Program-made: the position numbers and the translations under genes
Origin: a bacterium
Lineage (GTDB): Bacteria > Hinthialibacterota > Hinthialibacteria > OLB16
Direction of reading: 5' to 3'
DNA length: 64,000 nucleotides
Assembly: GCA_022072055.1 (NCBI GenBank)
Contig: JAJVIK010000002.1
Coordinates: 107,615 to 171,614 of the forward strand
The notes under the pieces: generated by a model
Databases searched by the model: none
What the model was told of the DNA's origin: nothing
The model's input: only the letters and a program-made list of their open reading frames with translations
Shown here: positions 51,894 through 61,133 of the stretch, piece after piece
Layout of the letters: each line of letters opens with the position of its first letter
How positions within the stretch are numbered: the stretch's first letter is position 1

Positions 51894-54842
51894 TCAGCGC
51901 CGCTTGGCAGTCTTCTTGGTCGCCTTCTTGGCGCTCGCGCGCTTGGGGGCCTTCTTGAGAACGGCCTTCCGCTTCGGCGCGACCTTTTTGGCGGCCTTGG
52001 CTCGTGGCGCGGCGACTCTCTTGGCGGCCTTCTTCACCGGCGCGGGCTTGGCCGTCCGCTTGGCTTTGACCGCCGCCTTCTTGGGCGCGGCCTTCCTCGG
52101 CGCGGGCTTTGCCTGAGTCTTCGGAGTGGAGGTGATCGCCGCCTGCGCCGCCGCGAAACGCGCAATCGGCACTCGGAAAGGCGAGCAGCTTACATAGTTC
52201 AACCCGGCCTCGTGGCAGAACCGAACCGAGGCCGGATCGCCGCCGTGCTCCCCGCAGATGCCGACCTTGAGGTCCGGACGGGTCGCGCGCCCGCGTTCAA
52301 TGCTGATCTTGATCAGCTCCCCGACCGCCTCAATGTCAATCGAGGCGAAGGGATCCTCGGGCAGGAGTTTCTTCTCCAGGTAATCCCCCAGGAACCCGCC
52401 AATGTCATCCCGGGAGAACCCGAACGACATCTGAGTCAGGTCGTTCGTCCCAAAGGAGAAGAACTCGGCCACCTCGGCCATTCGGTTCGAGGTCAACGCG
52501 GCGCGCGGAATCTCGATCATGGTGCCATAGAGGTAGGGGATCTTCGAAAGGCCGAGTTTGGCGCAGGCCTCGGAGTGGACACGCTCCACGATGGCCTTCT
52601 GGTGGTCGAGCTCCTTGGAGGTGCAGGTGACCGGAATCATGATTTCGGGCAGGGCCTTGACCCCCACTTTGAGGAGCTCGCCCGCGGCCTCCAAGATCGC
52701 GCGAACCTGCATCGCGGTCACCTCGGGGTAAGTGACGCCGAGGCGCACTCCGCGGTGCCCCATCATCGGGTTGTTCTCGTGCAGACCCTCGGCGCGACGC
52801 TCCAGCGCGGCCAAATCGATATGGAGAGAGGCGGCCAGCTCCTCCAAACGCTCCCTCGATTTCGGCACAAACTCGTGCAAGGGCGGATCAAGCAACCGGA
52901 TGGTGACCGGATAGCCGCCCATCACCGCGAGGGTCTTCTTGATGTCATCCTTCATGTGCGGGAAGAGCTCATCAAGCGCCTCGGTCCGCTCCGCCAGCGT
53001 GGCGGACATGATCATCTTCCGCAGCAGGAACAGGGCGTCATCCGACCCCTCGCCATAGAACATGTGCTCGATGCGGAAAAGCCCGATCCCTTGGGCGCCG
53101 AACTTGAGCGCGCGCGCGGCATCCTCAGGCGTGTCGGCGTTGGTGCGGATGCCGATCTTGCGGAAGCTGTCCGACCACTCCATCAGTTTCATGTAGTGCT
53201 CGTTGTGTTCCAGGTCCGGCTCCACCAGAGCGATGTCGTGGTCAAAGACCCGCCCGGAGGTTCCGTTCAAGGAGAAGACATCCCCTTGGCGGTAGGTCTT
53301 GTCCCCGATGGTGAGAGTCCTCGACCCCATGTCAATGCGCAGCGCGGAGCAGCCGACAATGCAGCACTTCCCCCAACCACGCGCGACCAGGGCGGCGTGC
53401 GAGGTCATTCCGCCCTTGGAGGTCAGAATCCCCTGGGCGACATGCATGCCGTGGACATCCTCCGGCGAGGTCTCGTTGCGAACCAGGAGCACCTTGCGTC
53501 CGGATTTCGCGAGCTCGGCGGCCTCATCCGCCGTGAACACAATCTCTCCCACCGCTCCCCCGGGGCCCGCCGGCAGTCCCTTGGCCACCGGATGGGTGGC
53601 GCGCTCCACCTTCGGATCGAGCATCGGCAGGAGCAATTCGAGCAGCTGCTCGGGCTTAACCCGCATCAGCGCGATCTTGCGGTCGATCAGTCCTTCCTGG
53701 GCCATTTCCACCGCCATGCGAGCGGCCGCCGCGCCGGTGCGCTTTCCGGTGCGGGTCTGGAGCATCCACAGCGTTCCACGCTCCACCGTGAACTCAATGT
53801 CCTGCATGTCCTTGTAGTGTTTCTCGAGCTTGAGACGGATCGAATTGAGCTGCTCATAGGCGCTGGGGGTGACCTCGGCCAGAGTCTTCTGAGTGCTGTT
53901 GGCGTCATTCTTGGATTCATCGTTGATCGGCGAGGGGGTCCGCGTCCCCGCCACCACATCCTCGCCCTGCGCGTTGGTCAGGAACTCGCCGTAGAAATGG
54001 TTCTCGCCGGTGGCCGGATTGCGGGTGAAGGCCACCCCCGTGCAGCAGTCCTCTCCCATGTTCCCGAAGACCATCGCCTGCACATTGACCGCGGTTCCCC
54101 ATTCCTCCGGGATCTTCTCGATGCGGCGATACTCCACCGCGCGGCGGCCCATCCAGGAGGCGAACACCGCGCCGATTCCGCCCCAGAGTTGCTCCATCGG
54201 ATCATCCGGGAAAGGCTTCCCGAGAACTTCCAGCACGGTCTCCTTGAACCTCGCGGCCAGCTCCCTCCAATCCTCGGCGGACAAATCCGTGTCGAGGGTC
54301 ACTCCCTTGGCGTGTTTGCGCTCATCAATCAAATGCTCCAGGCGGGGGCGAATGCCGTGGCCATCCTTCGGCTCCACGCCAGCCGCCTTTTCCATGACCA
54401 CATCCGAATACATCATGATCAAACGGCGGTACGAGTCGTACACAAAGCGGGCATCCCCGGACTCTTCGATCAGGCCGGGAAGGGTGGTTTCCGTCAGGCC
54501 CACGTTGAGCACGGTTTCCATCATGCCGGGCATCGAAAGGCGCGCTCCGGAGCGGACCGAAACAAGTAGAGGACGGCGCGGGTCGCCGAACTTCCGGCCC
54601 ATGATCTTCTCGACCCGCTCCAGCGCGGAGCGGACCTGGCCCTCCAGCTCCTTGGGATAGCGCCGCCCGTGCTTGTAGTAGTGTGTGCACACCTCGGTGG
54701 TGACCGTGAATCCCGGCGGCACCGGAATCCCGATCCCGCTCATCTCCGCCAGGTTGGCGCCCTTGCCTCCCAAGAGGTTCTTCATGCTTTCATCGCCGTC
54801 GGCCTTTCCGCCGCCGAAACTGTAGACATACTTCGCGGGCAT
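51894..54842 (-). CDS. ppdK: Pyruvate phosphate dikinase with a histone-H1-like C-terminal tail
   Basis: The protein has 982 residues; PPDK usually ends near 880-910. The N-terminal ATP-grasp domain has GGKGANLAEMSGIG and RSGARLSMPGMMETVLN. The phosphohistidine motif GGMTSHAALVARG lies near residue 480. The C-terminal PEP-binding domain has FFSFGTNDLTQM and GICGEHGGDP. From about residue 900 to the end the chain is Lys/Ala/Pro/Arg-rich with KKAA- and RAKAAK-type units. ATG 54842 is chosen for AGGAGG six bases upstream; longer frames from 54980 are implausible. The enzyme interconverts pyruvate and PEP. The tail is unusual and is treated in the findings. Confidence 0.96.
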   Translation of the reverse strand: MPAKYVYSFGGGKADGDESMKNLLGGKGANLAEMSGIGIPVPPGFTVTTEVCTHYYKHGRRYPKELEGQVRSALERVEKIMGRKFGDPRRPLLVSVRSGARLSMPGMMETVLNVGLTETTLPGLIEESGDARFVYDSYRRLIMMYSDVVMEKAAGVEPKDGHGIRPRLEHLIDERKHAKGVTLDTDLSAEDWRELAARFKETVLEVLGKPFPDDPMEQLWGGIGAVFASWMGRRAVEYRRIEKIPEEWGTAVNVQAMVFGNMGEDCCTGVAFTRNPATGENHFYGEFLTNAQGEDVVAGTRTPSPINDESKNDANSTQKTLAEVTPSAYEQLNSIRLKLEKHYKDMQDIEFTVERGTLWMLQTRTGKRTGAAAARMAVEMAQEGLIDRKIALMRVKPEQLLELLLPMLDPKVERATHPVAKGLPAGPGGAVGEIVFTADEAAELAKSGRKVLLVRNETSPEDVHGMHVAQGILTSKGGMTSHAALVARGWGKCCIVGCSALRIDMGSRTLTIGDKTYRQGDVFSLNGTSGRVFDHDIALVEPDLEHNEHYMKLMEWSDSFRKIGIRTNADTPEDAARALKFGAQGIGLFRIEHMFYGEGSDDALFLLRKMIMSATLAERTEALDELFPHMKDDIKKTLAVMGGYPVTIRLLDPPLHEFVPKSRERLEELAASLHIDLAALERRAEGLHENNPMMGHRGVRLGVTYPEVTAMQVRAILEAAGELLKVGVKALPEIMIPVTCTSKELDHQKAIVERVHSEACAKLGLSKIPYLYGTMIEIPRAALTSNRMAEVAEFFSFGTNDLTQMSFGFSRDDIGGFLGDYLEKKLLPEDPFASIDIEAVGELIKISIERGRATRPDLKVGICGEHGGDPASVRFCHEAGLNYVSCSPFRVPIARFAAAQAAITSTPKTQAKPAPRKAAPKKAAVKAKRTAKPAPVKKAAKRVAAPRAKAAKKVAPKRKAVLKKAPKRASAKKATKKTAKRR

Positions 54843-54951
54843 CAGTTTCCTCCTCATCGCTTGCGTGATGGTCCGAAGAAAGAAGGGAAGGGGCGTGCGC
54901 GAGGCGGCGCGATCCTCCCTCAAGAAGTCCCAAACGCGCAGTGAAGGGGTG

Positions 54952-54980
54952 ATTCTACCGGACACAAGGGTTCCAAACAA
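54952..54980 (-). promoter_or_regulatory. Candidate ppdK promoter
   Basis: On the minus strand, TTGTTT (54980-54975) and TAGAAT (54957-54952) are 17 bases apart. The -10 matches the consensus at five of six positions. A transcript would start about 100 bases before the ppdK ATG. Confidence 0.45.
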
Positions 54981-54998
54981 GAATCCGAACGCATGTAT

Positions 54999-55041
54999 AG
55001 CCGGGCTGGGAAAACACCGTCTCGGGATGACATGCCCGGCT
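54999..55041. other. Inverted repeat in the ppdK/yezD intergenic region
   Basis: AGCCGGGC at 54999-55006 pairs exactly with GCCCGGCT at 55034-55041, leaving a loop of 27 bases. It lies in the divergent region between ppdK and yezD, upstream of both assigned promoters. It could be a regulator-binding region or a small RNA structure. I found no further support. Confidence 0.35.
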
Positions 55042-55137
55042 CACCATGTGGGGATTCCCTCGGATTGTGAACAGGTTGAGAATGCTTGGGTTAGGGTTGG
55101 TTTCCACGGTTTGCTGTGAATTGGGGGCATTCACCGC

Positions 55138-55167
55138 TTGACAATCGCGGATCGGGTCCGGTATATT
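55138..55167 (+). promoter_or_regulatory. Promoter of the sulfate operon
   Basis: TTGACA at 55138-55143 (six of six) and TATATT at 55162-55167 (five of six), spaced by 18 bases. This is the best promoter in the window. The start near 55174 leaves a 5' leader of roughly 138 bases before yezD. The first copy of a direct repeat overlaps the -10. Confidence 0.7.
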
Positions 55168-55189
55168 CCCTATACAATTGATGGATTAA
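55166..55189. promoter_or_regulatory. Direct repeat copy 1, candidate operator
   Basis: TTCCCTATACAATTGATGGA and the following TTAA match 55278-55301 at 21 of 24 bases. This copy overlaps the -10 and the presumed transcription start. Its CCCTAT also pairs with ATAGGG at 55189-55194. A repressor site is the simplest reading; the regulator is unknown. Confidence 0.5.
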
Positions 55190-55195
55190 TAGGGG

Positions 55196-55249
55196 ATTGA
55201 CGGGAACAGAAAACACGGTGGCATCTTGGACCACAGAAGGTGTGTCAAT
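55196..55249 (+). ncRNA. Candidate structured leader RNA (riboswitch-like, unassigned)
   Basis: Three nested perfect pairings occur in the leader. P1 is ATTGAC 55196-55201 with GTCAAT 55244-55249. P2 is ACAC 55213-55216 with GTGT 55240-55243. P3 is GTGG 55218-55221 with CCAC 55231-55234. The 3' strands of P1 and P2 are contiguous and an 11-base purine-rich internal loop separates their 5' strands. It does not match a riboswitch class that I can recall. The pairings are visible; a ligand-binding role is inference, and short stems arise by chance. Confidence 0.35.
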
Positions 55250-55277
55250 GATGGAGTGGGAGTTTCGTTCCGCGCAT

Positions 55278-55301
55278 TTCCCTATTCAAACGATGGATTA
55301 A
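55278..55301. promoter_or_regulatory. Direct repeat copy 2, candidate operator
   Basis: TTCCCTATTCAAACGATGGA followed by TTAA, 112 bases downstream of copy 1 and ending 10 bases before the yezD ATG. Bound protein here could act as a roadblock or compete with ribosome access. No promoter of its own is evident. Confidence 0.45.
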
Positions 55302-55311
55302 AGAGAGTGAT

Positions 55312-55503
55312 ATGTCTGAGGATCAGCGCCGCCGAGGATTACTTGCGGATTCGGGTCCCAGCCGCACGGAGAAGGAGATCCTGAATTCGCTCAGGGGAAT
55401 CCGCTTCGGTTCGGTCGAAGTTGTCATCCACGATTCGCGCGTGGTTCAGATCGAGCGGAAGGAGAAGTTCCGGTTCGACACAGCGCCCGAAAGGCACAAG
55501 TGA
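55312..55503 (+). CDS. yezD: YezD-like small protein (DUF2292)
   Basis: The protein has 63 residues. The central part ILNSLRGIRFGSVEVVIHDS with VVQIERKEKFRF is the DUF2292 signature. Members are often found with sulfate and cysteine assimilation genes, which agrees with the downstream porin, sbp and cysTWA. The biochemical role is not established. ATG 55312 follows the direct repeat; the ribosome-binding region is AAAGAGAG. It is the first gene of the operon. Confidence 0.9.
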   Translation: MSEDQRRRGLLADSGPSRTEKEILNSLRGIRFGSVEVVIHDSRVVQIERKEKFRFDTAPERHK

Positions 55504-55568
55504 AAATGTGAAACCTGGGCCGACCAGACCGCTGGAGGCTCTTATTGAACCCATTGGGAGGAATGGCA

Positions 55569-57110
55569 ATGAGAGTCATCCGGTTGTTGGCCTTCATCAT
55601 GGTCGTGGGGAACGGTTGGGTCCAAGCCGAACAGGGCGTTGGACCGGCTTGGCCCCTGGAAGCGAAGGAGAGCGAGTTGTCACCAGTCGTCGCGAAAGAT
55701 CCGGTTTCGCTGCCCGAGCCGGCGCCACCTGTCTCCCCTAAACAGGAAGTGGAGTTTGCCTGCGAGGGGCCGAATTTCGGAGGAGAAGGCAAGTCGGGAA
55801 AGAGGGCAGAGGCGAAGAAGAAGGACGAAAAGAAGCAGGAAGACAGCCCGGTCGACTTCTCCGGCCACTATCGCCTGCGCTGGGAAAGCCAACAGAACTT
55901 CGACCTGGTGTACAGTCGAGATCACCTCGCTCCCCAGGGACAGGACAACGATGACAACTTCCTTCTGAGTCAACTTCGCCTCAACCTGGATCTCAAACCG
56001 ACCAAGCATTTCCATGCGCATTTCACGTTTCAGGACGCACGGGAGACCGGCTCGCATCAGATTGACCATGACGCTCTGGACCGTGCGTTTCAAAACTCGA
56101 TTCAGAACAAGGCAGACCTCTATGAGGCGTGGATCAAGCTTCGCCTTTACGACGCCCCGGTCTGGCTCCAAGTCGGACGCCAGGAGCTCATCTATGGGGA
56201 TAGAAGGCTGCTCGGGAACAGCCGTTTTCGGAACACGGGGAGAAACTTCGACGCCCTCCGACTGATCTTTGAACAGGATGATGTCAAGCTGGATCTCTTC
56301 GCGGCCAACCGCGTGCGAGTGGATTCCAACGCATGGGATCGGGCGGATCACAATGACAATTTCCTGGGGGCCTACGCCACGGTCAAGAACCTCCCGCATG
56401 GCGTTCAGGACCTGTACCTCTTGTATCGGGATAATGATCAAACCCACCGTGAGGAGTACTCCCTGGGAACGCGTATCGTGGGCGATGAAGGCCCCTGGGA
56501 TTGGAATCTCGAAGGGGTCTATCAATGGGGAAGCTCCGTGGACACGGTAAGACCGTTCGTCAGCAGCACAGAAATACTGGACCACCAAGCTTGGGCCGTG
56601 CATGCCGAGCTGGGTTACATCTGCAAGGACCATCCGCTGATGCCGCGCCTGGCTCTTGAGTATGACTTCGCCTCGGGGGACAAAGACCCGTTCGACGGCG
56701 AGAACAATACATTTGACCAGCTCTATCCGAATAACCACACCCCTTTCGGGATCATGGATTTCGTGGGGTGGAAGAACATCCAGATCCTCGCACCCAAGCT
56801 TGCCTGGCAACAGTCCAAGAAGTTGAGAATGGGGGCTGACTGGTTCCTCTTCTGGCAGCCGGAGGAGAGTAATGACGCATGGTATGACTCCGGCGGACAT
56901 CAGTTCCGCAACGCCCGAGGCGCTTCAGCGGAGCACTTCTTGGGACACGAATTGAACATCTATGGGGTCTATGAGGTGAACGATGACTTCGAGGTCGAAG
57001 CGGGATACGGCCACTTTTTCGCGGGCGGCTTGGCCGCCGACACCGCTCCCCTTGGAGGAGGCGCGGATGATGCGGATTTCGCTTATATCCAAACGACCTG
57101 GAAGTTCTAG
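55569..57110 (+). CDS. Outer-membrane porin of the alginate-export (AlgE-like) family
   Basis: The protein has 513 residues. A signal peptide (MRVIRLLAFIMVVGNGWVQA) is followed by a Lys/Glu-rich linker of ~80 residues and a beta-rich barrel. DFSGHYRLRWESQ opens the barrel and VGRQELIYGDRRLLGNSRF and NTGRNFDALRL match the alginate-export domain. The last residue is Phe in TTWKF, as expected for BAM recognition. ATG 55569 has GGGAGGA seven bases upstream; the frame from 55545 uses a TTG. In this operon it most likely carries sulfate or a sulfur compound across the outer membrane, an inference from position. Confidence 0.9.
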   Translation: MRVIRLLAFIMVVGNGWVQAEQGVGPAWPLEAKESELSPVVAKDPVSLPEPAPPVSPKQEVEFACEGPNFGGEGKSGKRAEAKKKDEKKQEDSPVDFSGHYRLRWESQQNFDLVYSRDHLAPQGQDNDDNFLLSQLRLNLDLKPTKHFHAHFTFQDARETGSHQIDHDALDRAFQNSIQNKADLYEAWIKLRLYDAPVWLQVGRQELIYGDRRLLGNSRFRNTGRNFDALRLIFEQDDVKLDLFAANRVRVDSNAWDRADHNDNFLGAYATVKNLPHGVQDLYLLYRDNDQTHREEYSLGTRIVGDEGPWDWNLEGVYQWGSSVDTVRPFVSSTEILDHQAWAVHAELGYICKDHPLMPRLALEYDFASGDKDPFDGENNTFDQLYPNNHTPFGIMDFVGWKNIQILAPKLAWQQSKKLRMGADWFLFWQPEESNDAWYDSGGHQFRNARGASAEHFLGHELNIYGVYEVNDDFEVEAGYGHFFAGGLAADTAPLGGGADDADFAYIQTTWKF

Positions 57111-57246: not shown

Positions 57247-57271
57247 CGATGAGAGTGAAGGAGAAACCAAA

Positions 57272-58294
57272 ATGAAAACCAACTTGATCAAGAACATACT
57301 AGCAGTCGCCGTCGCGGCGAGCCTATCGATTTCCGGGCTTGCCAAGGAGATCAAGCTCCTAAACGCGTCCTACGACCCCACGCGCGAGTTCTACAAGGAC
57401 TTCAATGCCGCCTTCGCCAAGTTCTGGAAGGACAAGACCGGCGATGAGGTCAGCGTGGAGCAGTCCCATGGCGGCTCCGGAAAGCAGGCTCGCGCGGTGA
57501 TCGATGGGCTGGAGGCCGATGTGGTCACCCTGGCGCTGGCTTATGACATCGATGAGATCCACGAGCGCGGCGGATTGCTCCCGGCGGACTGGCAGTCGCG
57601 GCTCCCCGACAACAGCGCGCCCTACACCTCGACCATCGTGTTCCTGGTGCGCAAGGGCAATCCCAAGGGAATCAAGGATTGGGATGACCTGGTTAAGCCG
57701 GGGATTCAAGTCATCACCCCCAACCCGAAAACCTCGGGCGGAGCGCGCTGGAATTATCTGGCCGCGTGGGGCTTCGCTCTCAGGAAGCATGGCAACGATG
57801 AGGCCAAAGCCCGGGAGTTTGTCGGTCAACTCTTCGGCAACGTTCCGGTCCTGGACTCCGGGGCGCGCGGCTCCACGACCACCTTTGTCCAGCGGGGCAT
57901 CGGCGATGTGCTGCTGGCCTGGGAGAACGAAGCCTTCCTCGCGCTTCAGGAACTCGGTCCGGGCAAGGTCGAGATCGTCGCCCCCTCGGTCAGCATCTTG
58001 GCCGAGCCAACCGTGGCCGTTGTGGATTCGGTGGTGGACAAACGCGGCACTCGCGAGGTGGCGGAGGCCTATCTCAGGCGCCTGTATTCCGAGGAGGGAC
58101 AGGAGCTTGCCGCCAAGCACTTCTACCGCCCGCGCCTTGAATCGCTCGCCAAGACGGTCGTGGATCGTTTCCCCACCATCGATCTGTTCACCCTGGACCA
58201 GGTCTTCGGGAGCTGGAAACAGGCTCAAGAGGCGCATTTCAAGGATGGGGGCCTTTTCGACCAGATCTATGAAAAGAAGACCGTCAAGAAGTGA
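57272..58294 (+). CDS. sbp: Sulfate-binding periplasmic protein
   Basis: The protein has 340 residues from ATG 57272, with GAAGGAG upstream. A signal peptide ([19 protein letters not shown]) ends near GLAKE. The mature protein starts with [19 protein letters not shown], the classic family sequence. [20 protein letters not shown] and ALAYDID follow, and [17 protein letters not shown] carries ligand-contact residues. It delivers sulfate (or thiosulfate) to CysTWA. The following gene begins 16 bases later. Confidence 0.96.
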
Positions 58295-58310: not shown

Positions 58311-59141
58311 ATGGCCGTCAAGAAGCATACTGTCCTCCCCGGATTCGGTCTCGCGCTGGGATGCACCGTGCTCTACCTGAGCCTCTTGGTGCTGATCCCG
58401 ATTGCGGGTCTGTTGCTCCGCGCCACCTCGCTGTCGTGGATGGAGTTCTGGGAGGTTGTGACCTCGGATCGGGTCTTGGCCTCTTTCCGGATCAGCTTTC
58501 TTGCCTCGCTGGCCGCCGCCGGGCTCAACGGAGTGTTGGGCCTGGTGGTGGCCTGGGTGTTGGTGCGCTATTCGTTCCCGCTCAAAGGGCTGGTGGATGG
58601 GCTGGTGGACTTGCCCTTCGCCTTGCCGACCGCCGTGGCGGGAATTTCACTGACCAATCTGTATTCGAACTCCGGTTGGATCGGCTCGCGCCTGGAGCCG
58701 CTCGGGATCCAGGTGGCCTACACCCCGCTCGGTATTGTGGTGGCGCTGACCTTCATCGGTTTGCCGTTTGTGGTCCGGACACTTCAGCCCGTGCTTGAGG
58801 ACCTGGACCCGGAGGTGGAGGAGGCGGCGGCCAGCCTGGGAGCGAATCGGTTTCAAGCGCTGCGCAGAGTGGTGATTCCGAGCATCCTCCCGGCGTTGCT
58901 CACCGGGGTGGCGCTGGCCTTCGCGCGCGCGTTCGGGGAGTACGGTTCCGTGGTGTTTATCTCGGGCAACCTCCCGATGCGGACCGAGATCGCGCCGCTA
59001 CTGATCATGACCAAACTGGAGCAGTATGACTACGCCGGGGCGACCGCCATCGCGGTGGTGATGCTCCTGGTTTCGTTCAGCGTCCTGCTGTTCATCAATC
59101 TTCTGACCTGGTGGGTGCGCCGCGGCGCGGCGCGGGCTTAG
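58311..59141 (+). CDS. cysT: Sulfate ABC transporter permease CysT
   Basis: The protein has 276 residues. Six hydrophobic segments and the EAA loop region (EEAAASLGANRFQALRRVVI) are present. FAFGEYGSVVFISGN-like residues (FARAFGEYGSVVFISGNLP) near the C-terminus are typical of CysT. It pairs with CysW in the inner membrane. AAGGAAA precedes the ATG, and cysW begins 18 bases later. Confidence 0.95.
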   Translation: MAVKKHTVLPGFGLALGCTVLYLSLLVLIPIAGLLLRATSLSWMEFWEVVTSDRVLASFRISFLASLAAAGLNGVLGLVVAWVLVRYSFPLKGLVDGLVDLPFALPTAVAGISLTNLYSNSGWIGSRLEPLGIQVAYTPLGIVVALTFIGLPFVVRTLQPVLEDLDPEVEEAAASLGANRFQALRRVVIPSILPALLTGVALAFARAFGEYGSVVFISGNLPMRTEIAPLLIMTKLEQYDYAGATAIAVVMLLVSFSVLLFINLLTWWVRRGAARA

Positions 59142-59159: not shown

Positions 59160-60053
59160 ATGGCGGGCGCCACCACCCTTTCCGTGCATTCCAGGCGACG
59201 GGCCAAGCCGCGGGTGATCACCGAGCCGGCCTGGCTTCGGCGGACATTGATACTGATCGCCTTGGCTTTCCTCGGACTTTTCCTGGTGCTCCCGCTCGTG
59301 GCGGTCTTCTCGCAGGCGCTTGAGAAGGGAATCGGCGTTTATTTCGCGGCGATCCGCGAGCCGGATGCCTTGGCCGCGATTCGCCTCACCCTCCTGATCG
59401 CGGCGATCGCGGTTCCGCTCAATGTGGCCTTCGGTCTCGCGGCCGCTTGGGCCATCGCGAAGTTCTCGTTCCCCGGCAAAAACCTGCTGATCACCCTGAT
59501 CGACCTCCCCTTTTCGGTCTCTCCGGTCATCTCGGGTCTGATCTTTGTGCTCCTGTTCGGTCTTCAGGGCTGGCTTGGGCCGTTTCTGCGGGAGCATGAC
59601 ATCAAGATCATCTTCGCGCTCCCGGGCATGGTCCTCGCCACCCTCTTCGTTACCTTCCCCTTTGTCGCGCGGGAACTGATCCCCTTGATGCAGGAGCAAG
59701 GAAGCGAGGAGGAAGAGGCCGCGCTGGTCTTGGGCTCCAGCGGGCTTCAGACCTTTTGGCGGGTGACCCTCCCCAACATCAAGTGGGGGCTGCTCTATGG
59801 CGTGATCCTCTGCAACGCCCGCGCGATGGGGGAATTCGGCGCGGTCTCGGTGGTCTCCGGGCACATTCGCGGGCGCACCAACACCATGCCGCTGCATGTG
59901 GAGATTCTATACAACGAATACAACTTCGCCGCCGCGTTCGCGGTGGCCTCGCTGCTGGCCCTGCTCGCGCTCGCCACCTTGGCGCTGAAGAAGATCGCCG
60001 AGGGGCGAGTGCACGGGGAACTGGCTGGCGACACGGATTCGACCGCCGCGTAA
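59160..60053 (+). CDS. cysW: Sulfate ABC transporter permease CysW
   Basis: The protein has 297 residues. The N-terminal ~25 residues are charged ([15 protein letters not shown]) before the first hydrophobic segment. The EAA-type loop reads [20 protein letters not shown]. The downstream [17 protein letters not shown] and [17 protein letters not shown] segments are the typical CysW C-terminal signature. It forms the heterodimeric membrane channel with CysT. cysA follows by 12 bases. Confidence 0.95.
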
Positions 60054-60065
60054 CGGAGATTCCCC

Positions 60066-61133
60066 ATGAGCATCCAAGTCCGCGATATCACCAAGACTTT
60101 CGGGGCCTTCACCGCCCTGCGCGATGTGACCCTGGAGGTTCCCCCCGGTGACCTGCTCGCCTTGCTGGGTCCCTCCGGGTCCGGGAAGACCACCCTGCTG
60201 CGGATCATTTCGGGCCTCGAGGTTCCGGACTCCGGCCAGGTTCTGGTTCATGGCGAGGATGTCACCGACCAACCCCTTCGAGACCGCCGCGTGGGTTTTG
60301 TGTTCCAGCATTACGCCCTCTTCCGTCACATGACTGTTTTCGAGAATGTCGCCTTCGGGCTGCGTGTGAGGCCCCGCGCCGAACGCCCTTCCAAGGCGGA
60401 AATCCGCGAGCGGGTGATGCGCCTGCTTCAGCTGGTGCAGCTGGAGCAGCTCACTCATCGGTATCCCTCGCAGCTCTCCGGCGGGCAACGTCAGCGAGTG
60501 GCCCTCGCGCGCGCCCTCGCGGTCGAACCGAAGATCCTCCTGCTTGATGAACCCTTCGGCGCCCTGGACGCCAAGGTGCGGAAAGAGCTGCGGACCTGGC
60601 TCCGCCGTCTCCATGATGAGATCCATGTCACCAGCGTGTTCGTGACCCACGATCAGGAGGAGGCGCTGGAGGTGGCCGACCGGGTGGTCATCATGAACGA
60701 GGGGCGCATTGAGCAGGTCGGCTCGCCGGAGGAGGTTTACCACCATCCCAAGACCCCCTTTGTTTACAACTTCCTGGGGAATGTGAACCTGTTCCACAGC
60801 CGTGTGGAGAACGGCAAGGCCTACCTGGGAAACACTCTGATCGAGGTTCCGAAGACCGGGATCCACGACAGCCGCGAGGCCAAGGTGTTCATCCGCCCTC
60901 ACCTGCTCAACATCGAGCGCTCCCAGAACGGTCGCACCGCGTTCGGGGCCCGGATTCTTCACCTCAACCCGGCAGGTCCGATGGTCAAGGTGGAGCTTGA
61001 GACCGAATGGGGCGACAACATCCTGGTCGAGCTCTCACAAGACCGTTACCGGACCCTGGGGCTTCGCAAGGAGGAGTATGTGTATGTCAGCCCGAAGGAG
61101 TTCCAAGTTTACGCCGAGGATTATTCCATCTAA
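60066..61133 (+). CDS. cysA: Sulfate ABC transporter ATP-binding protein
   Basis: The protein has 355 residues. Walker A is [11 protein letters not shown], the signature is [15 protein letters not shown] and Walker B is [22 protein letters not shown] supplies the switch His. The C-terminal ~120 residues form a TOBE-type regulatory domain. It energises the CysT/CysW channel in the cytoplasm. The start has GGAG upstream. It is followed after nine bases by the DegT aminotransferase. Confidence 0.96.

Follow-up and report, generated by a model that had tools for sequence, protein, structure and literature searches.

Duplicated putative operators ahead of a sulfate-uptake operon point to a CymR-like Rrf2 repressor encoded in trans

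CymR of Bacillus subtilis (PDB 2Y75) is an Rrf2-family protein and the master repressor of cysteine metabolism, and IscR, of the same family, has a three-cysteine spacing unlike C-X8-C-X2-C-X5-C. In the presence of cysteine and at low O-acetylserine, CymR of B. subtilis acts as a repressor jointly with CysK (PMC3828012); a model has its C-terminus anchored within CysK (PMC11487621), and in CysE-CysK complexes the C-terminal Ile supplies most of the binding energy, a similar tail being noted for CymR (PMC12895370). CymR is also described as binding no Fe-S cluster (PMC9338935). Here we analysed a sulfate-uptake operon within a stretch of 64 kb (the window), and propose from sequence comparison that two copies of a motif at its 5' end, W1 and W2, are probably a pair of operators for a CymR-like repressor of the Rrf2 family, encoded in trans by the gene L084.

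The operon lies on the forward strand and starts with yezD (DUF2292; 55312-55503), which encodes an OscA-like small protein (PF10055, 62.8 bits; 57.3 bits on the OscA model NF033785, under its cut-off of 85). It continues with the gene of an outer-membrane porin of the Alginate_exp family (55566-57110; PF13372, 221.9 bits), sbp for the sulfate-binding protein (57263-58294), the sulfate permease genes cysT (58311-59141; TIGR02139) and cysW (59160-60053; TIGR02140) and the sulfate ABC ATPase gene cysA (60066-61133; TIGR00968), the last three scoring above the cut-offs of their models. Upstream of yezD, a sigma-70-type promoter on the forward strand (55138-55167), composed of TTGACA (55138-55143), an 18-base spacer and TATATT (55162-55167), matches 11 of the 12 consensus letters, and is the only promoter-like site in 54950-55600, where shuffled sequence gives a mean of 0.4. 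The putative operator W1 (TTCCCTATACAATTGATGGATTAA, 55166-55189, forward strand) starts at the penultimate base of the -10 hexamer and extends over the expected start site. Its second copy, the putative operator W2 (TTCCCTATTCAAACGATGGATTAA, 55278-55301, forward strand), lies in the leader just 5' of the yezD ribosome-binding region, with 10 bases between its end and the yezD ATG. The two 24-base copies are identical at 21 positions and are offset by 112 bases from start to start, that is, 10.7 helical turns with no obvious phase; DNA looping that joins them is possible. When the window was searched with the strict W1/W2 pattern, allowing up to three mismatches, W1 and W2 were the only matches, and two or more matches occurred in none of 100 shuffles. 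The preliminary description had reported a near-consensus promoter overlapped by one copy of a duplicated 24-base motif, the first copy at the -10 box and start site and the second just ahead of yezD, in front of a complete sulfate-uptake operon, and each of these elements was borne out by the coordinates, the shuffles and the gene content given above.

The operon is patchy in its lineage, since a search of 61 genomes selected for relatedness found yezD only in the window's own genome, and sbp was found in 5 of 14 genomes analysed from the phylum. Across 80 sulfate loci of named genomes, DUF2292/yezD is present in 35; it precedes sbp in 24 and follows it in 11, and these 11 are all Paenibacillus according to the record titles. 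Divergent to the operon, a long open reading frame on the reverse strand (51894-54980), which we take to encode pyruvate, phosphate dikinase, ends in a Lys/Ala-rich C-terminal tail of about 70 residues with a histone-H1-type likeness.

Six Rrf2 genes above the Pfam cut-off are present in the window's genome. One of them, L084 (G000:C15:112423-112881, 153 aa), lies on a contig other than that of the window and has a clear Rrf2 domain (PF02082, 124.6 bits against a cut-off of 30). Its product is 60% identical to the Rrf2 protein beside a verrucomicrobial sulfate operon (L013) and 55% identical to that of an Omnitrophota locus (L059). The gene that follows L084 encodes a DUF2061 protein, a domain that we presume to be linked to sulfate genes. 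Among the 80 sulfate loci of named genomes, an Rrf2 gene is found at or beside the operon in 12, from Verrucomicrobia, Bacillota, Omnitrophota, Acidobacteria and one alphaproteobacterium. We then searched a wider sample of 386 genomes for L084-type Rrf2 proteins (E 1e-32 or better), which were found in 23 genomes and yielded 17 new loci. The next gene downstream is a sulfur-assimilation gene in 9 of these 17: sbp (2), called from sequence and Pfam SBP_bac_11, a cysK-like PALP gene (4), called from PALP and sequence, a PAPS reductase gene (1) or NIR_SIR (2). The others are followed by PBP_like_2 (3), pyruvate kinase (1), a class-V aminotransferase (1), DUF3034 (1) or no gene that could be identified (2); the binding-protein gene PBP_like_2 stands behind an L084-clade Rrf2 in L167, L169 and L173, from three genomes. 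Elsewhere, then, relatives of L084 head genes for sulfate uptake, cysteine synthase, sulfite reductase or PAPS reductase. The preliminary description had read the copies as operator-like, W1 being placed as a repressor site would be, and had listed Rrf2 among the candidate regulators; the comparison favours this family and, within it, the single gene L084.

L084 resembles CymR in family and in linkage to sulfur genes, and matches the CymR chain at E 1.4e-22, CymR being its best NCBIfam equivalog relative, behind the superfamily model only. On the other hand, L084 scores 88.9 bits on the CymR model NF047409, well below the cut-off of 195, and the motif, in its best alignment with the cysK operator published for B. 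subtilis, gives no significant match (p 0.08-0.24), so that identity of the motif with the CymR operator is unsupported. By its sequence L084 is hence CymR-like but not CymR. It ends in MYYI, of the Tyr-Ile type seen in CysK-docking tails and resembling the CymR tail that was modelled to dock in CysK (PMC11487621). L084 differs from CymR in having four clustered cysteines (CVSQMAYRPCEECRDELTC) spaced C-X8-C-X2-C-X5-C, CymR being described as binding no such Fe-S cluster (PMC9338935), although binding of a cluster by L084 would be a prediction from its cysteines. IscR shares with L084 the Rrf2 family and conserved cysteines in the same region; L084 nevertheless scores only 67.6 bits on TIGR02010 (cut-off 207.55), its cysteine spacing is different, and the neighbours of its clade are sulfur-assimilation genes. 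The solved sequence nearest to L084, the Rrf2-family regulator PDB 4CIC (E 1.1e-24), also ends in MYYI, but the segment aligned to the four cysteines of L084 has none.

We considered the C-terminal Ile as a hallmark of the L084 clade and rejected it. It is present in 25 of the 35 clade members, some of which end in GDGI or DFSI, and also in 10 of 13 Rrf2 hits from the phylum that lie outside the clade (L124, L126, L129, L130, L132, L133, L134, L135, L136 and L137), mostly as -MYYI or -MYHI, and in L088, another Rrf2 protein of this genome; it is thus a trait of several Rrf2 groups, and a potential CysK tail is possibly common among the Rrf2 proteins of this phylum. The GDGI and DFSI ends presumably resemble particular CysE ends. 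The distinguishing mark of the clade is the cysteine cluster, with four cysteines in 21 members, three in 12 and neither arrangement in 2. The window's genome encodes PAPS_reduct-family genes and a CysK (TIGR01136, 449.6 bits); its best CysE match, L184, is far under the cut-off and ends in KIL.

Recurrence of the motif near sulfur genes, on which the preliminary description had made its reading depend, was found in part. The strict motif, with up to three mismatches, has no match in the whole 5.86-Mb genome beyond W1 and W2, so the strict test yields no regulon, and in 80 related sulfate loci its best match has five mismatches, no improvement on the reversed control; only a profile approach worked there. 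In a relaxed form, the motif does occur before the rrf2 gene L084 and also in front of sulfate operons in related genomes. Indeed, 2 bases 5' of the L084 start codon lies TTCTCCATCGGAAAGATAGAGTAA, a palindrome of the form CTCYATC-N5-GATRGAG. Compared with the window motif, it has 6 differences over 21 fixed positions. A relaxed pattern built from three sites gave 29 matches in the own genome, and the reversed control 13. The three sites account for four of the 29, and 23 of the remainder fall within open reading frames and 2 are intergenic, one before a gene that we take from its sequence to be RNase Y-like and one before an unnamed open reading frame; given this distribution, we claim no further target.

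Motif models came from a Gibbs sampler whose training sets consisted of the 5' regions of relatives of the regulator (some sets also included the sbp regions of G001 and G007), always leaving out the window. Since the window has a GC content of 62% and the training regions are AT-rich, ranks within the window are biased; indeed, 20 models trained on shuffled regions also ranked W1 and W2 fairly high in it (5 and 8 in the best case). P-values were for this reason taken from dinucleotide shuffles of 55100-55311 (212 bases). The first comparison sets had been picked after the initial sites were seen, and rule-based or held-out sets were therefore used for the tests. With own-phylum regions from which the window's genome was excluded, W2 and W1 were the top two matches at width 20 (p 0/500 and 0/500) and at width 22 (p 0/500 and 0.028), while one of eight models in the shuffled-region control also hit W1 and W2 (p 0.016 and 0.024). 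Held-out runs, on 34 regions or the 14 closest with six settings each and without the window and its genome, placed W1 and W2 as the top two matches in 55100-55311 in all 12 cases. The best hit had p 0-0.16, the second hit p 0.0575 in one run and at most 0.0025 in the other 11, and the model consensus was A.TCTAT..A.T..ATAGA.T. As W1 resembles W2, the two successes are not independent. The twelve distant sulfate-linked rrf2 regions alone did not recover W1 and W2 (p 0.35-0.55). Apart from this distant 12-gene set by itself, the models show a motif that W1/W2 share with regions 5' of the regulator's relatives. As to the composition of the sets, the 34-region set and the 29-region set used below omit L017, L037 and L064, which the sets of the earlier tests included; for L173, whose start codon is unclear, the region was delimited manually around an already-seen site, and from L131, whose gene is interrupted by a stop codon, the 5' region alone was used.

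A further model, run at widths 19, 21 and 23, was built from 29 regulator 5' regions, with every genome under test kept out of the set. W1 was its best hit (p 0.1, 0.017 and 0.007, respectively), and a site was also found before the own L084 gene (p 0.023, 0.01 and 0); the own cysK 5' region had no significant site with this model. In G001, a genome of the same family as the window's, whose Rrf2 is 71% identical to L084, the sulfate operon lies on a contig other than that of rrf2 and has CCCTATTAAATCCATAGAG 23 bases 5' of sbp, a site found by the 29-region model with 0/300 shuffles at every width; no site was recognised in the 5' region of its rrf2. In G010, whose Rrf2 is 64% identical, rrf2 heads a cluster with a Porin_O_P gene, sbp, cysT, cysW and cysA, and is preceded by TCCTACTAAATCAATGGAT (fuller stretch, TATAATCCTACTAAATCAATGGAT), which begins at the -10 box much like W1 (p 0.007, 0 and 0 at the three widths). 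At the Omnitrophota locus L059, ACTCTACCAAATCCATAGAG overlaps the likely -10 region. The same 29-region model gave no significant site in the sbp and rrf2 5' regions of G007, which has the regulator, or before sbp of G004. DNA of G004, a genome of the same class (L151, G004:C430), is identical over 6 kb to L061, from a record titled Candidatus Omnitrophota bacterium, which hints either at the lineage of the window or at a wrong label on that record.

These results lend good support to W1 and W2 as Rrf2, CymR-like operators, and make L084 the likely regulator rather than L088, the other CymR-like Rrf2 of this genome. L088 (G000:C14, about 97,000-98,800) has its own claim on the sites, as it ends in MYHI and lies directly ahead of the APS-kinase gene cysC, just past which there is a PAPS_reduct-family match. 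We consider this assignment improbable: the two proteins are only 33% identical, the L088 5' region holds no significant site of the W1/W2 type (p 0.057-0.36), and in a model from the 5' regions of 12 Rrf2 genes of the phylum that are not orthologous, W1 and W2 come only 1034th and 565th in the window. About equally improbable is that the sites belong to another family of regulators, for instance of the LysR/CysB type, and that their likeness to Rrf2 sites is accidental. The beta-proteobacterial relatives of the operon indeed have no adjoining Rrf2 gene and carry AT-rich 5' regions of a different kind, which we take to be CysB sites, and the compositional bias of the motif test is real; against this explanation stand the held-out models and the sites that match in G001 and G010.

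The repeat could also be read at the RNA level, W2 pairing with the bases right after W1 so that the repetition provides an alternative pairing in a regulatory leader instead of a protein site. The arms 55188-55207 and 55267-55286 are 75% complementary and paired in the predicted fold; yet the z-score of the fold is only -1.36, with 18 of 200 shuffles equally stable, and the 5' half of W1 sits upstream of the expected start site. Rfam gave no family at gathering score, and with the threshold relaxed to E 10 there was still no plausible one. A riboswitch or structured leader was rejected on the unremarkable fold and the missing Rfam match, and we regard the RNA reading as very unlikely. Least credible of all is a chance repeat or a recent duplication without function: the absence of the strict motif elsewhere in the genome would fit it, but the shuffles never produced two such copies, models from other genomes recover both, and a related site precedes the own rrf2 gene.

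For the L084 repressor we infer binding, repression, a signal, a role for W2 and separate roles for the two sites, as follows. When reduced sulfur is plentiful, an L084 dimer would sit on W1, over the -10 hexamer and start site, and block initiation; a dimer would also occupy W2, 112 bases downstream, and perhaps block elongation. When sulfur is scarce, L084 would leave the sites and the sulfate operon would be expressed. The likeness of the MYYI end to the modelled docking tail of CymR suggests that L084 probably monitors the supply of cysteine by way of CysK and O-acetylserine; a further input, redox or Fe-S, may come from its four cysteines, and it probably represses its own gene through the same type of site.

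The control would be of a known kind, with a combination of sensors that is possibly new. More speculatively, and with doubt prevailing, L084 could represent a phylum-crossing Rrf2 clade that joins a CysK-docking Ile tail to a C-X8-C(-X1-2-C)-X5-C redox or Fe-S cluster and acts at TCTAT...ATAGA palindromes on sulfate and cysteine genes, here through two operators across 112 bases. A search of the open-access literature, judged at the level of search results, found no publication on such a clade outside Bacillota. The sulfate operon of an uncharacterised lineage now has a candidate for its regulator, an operator open to testing and a likely signal, and our results suggest that CymR-like control of sulfur uptake, possibly CysK-coupled and with an added cysteine cluster, may extend well beyond Bacillota.
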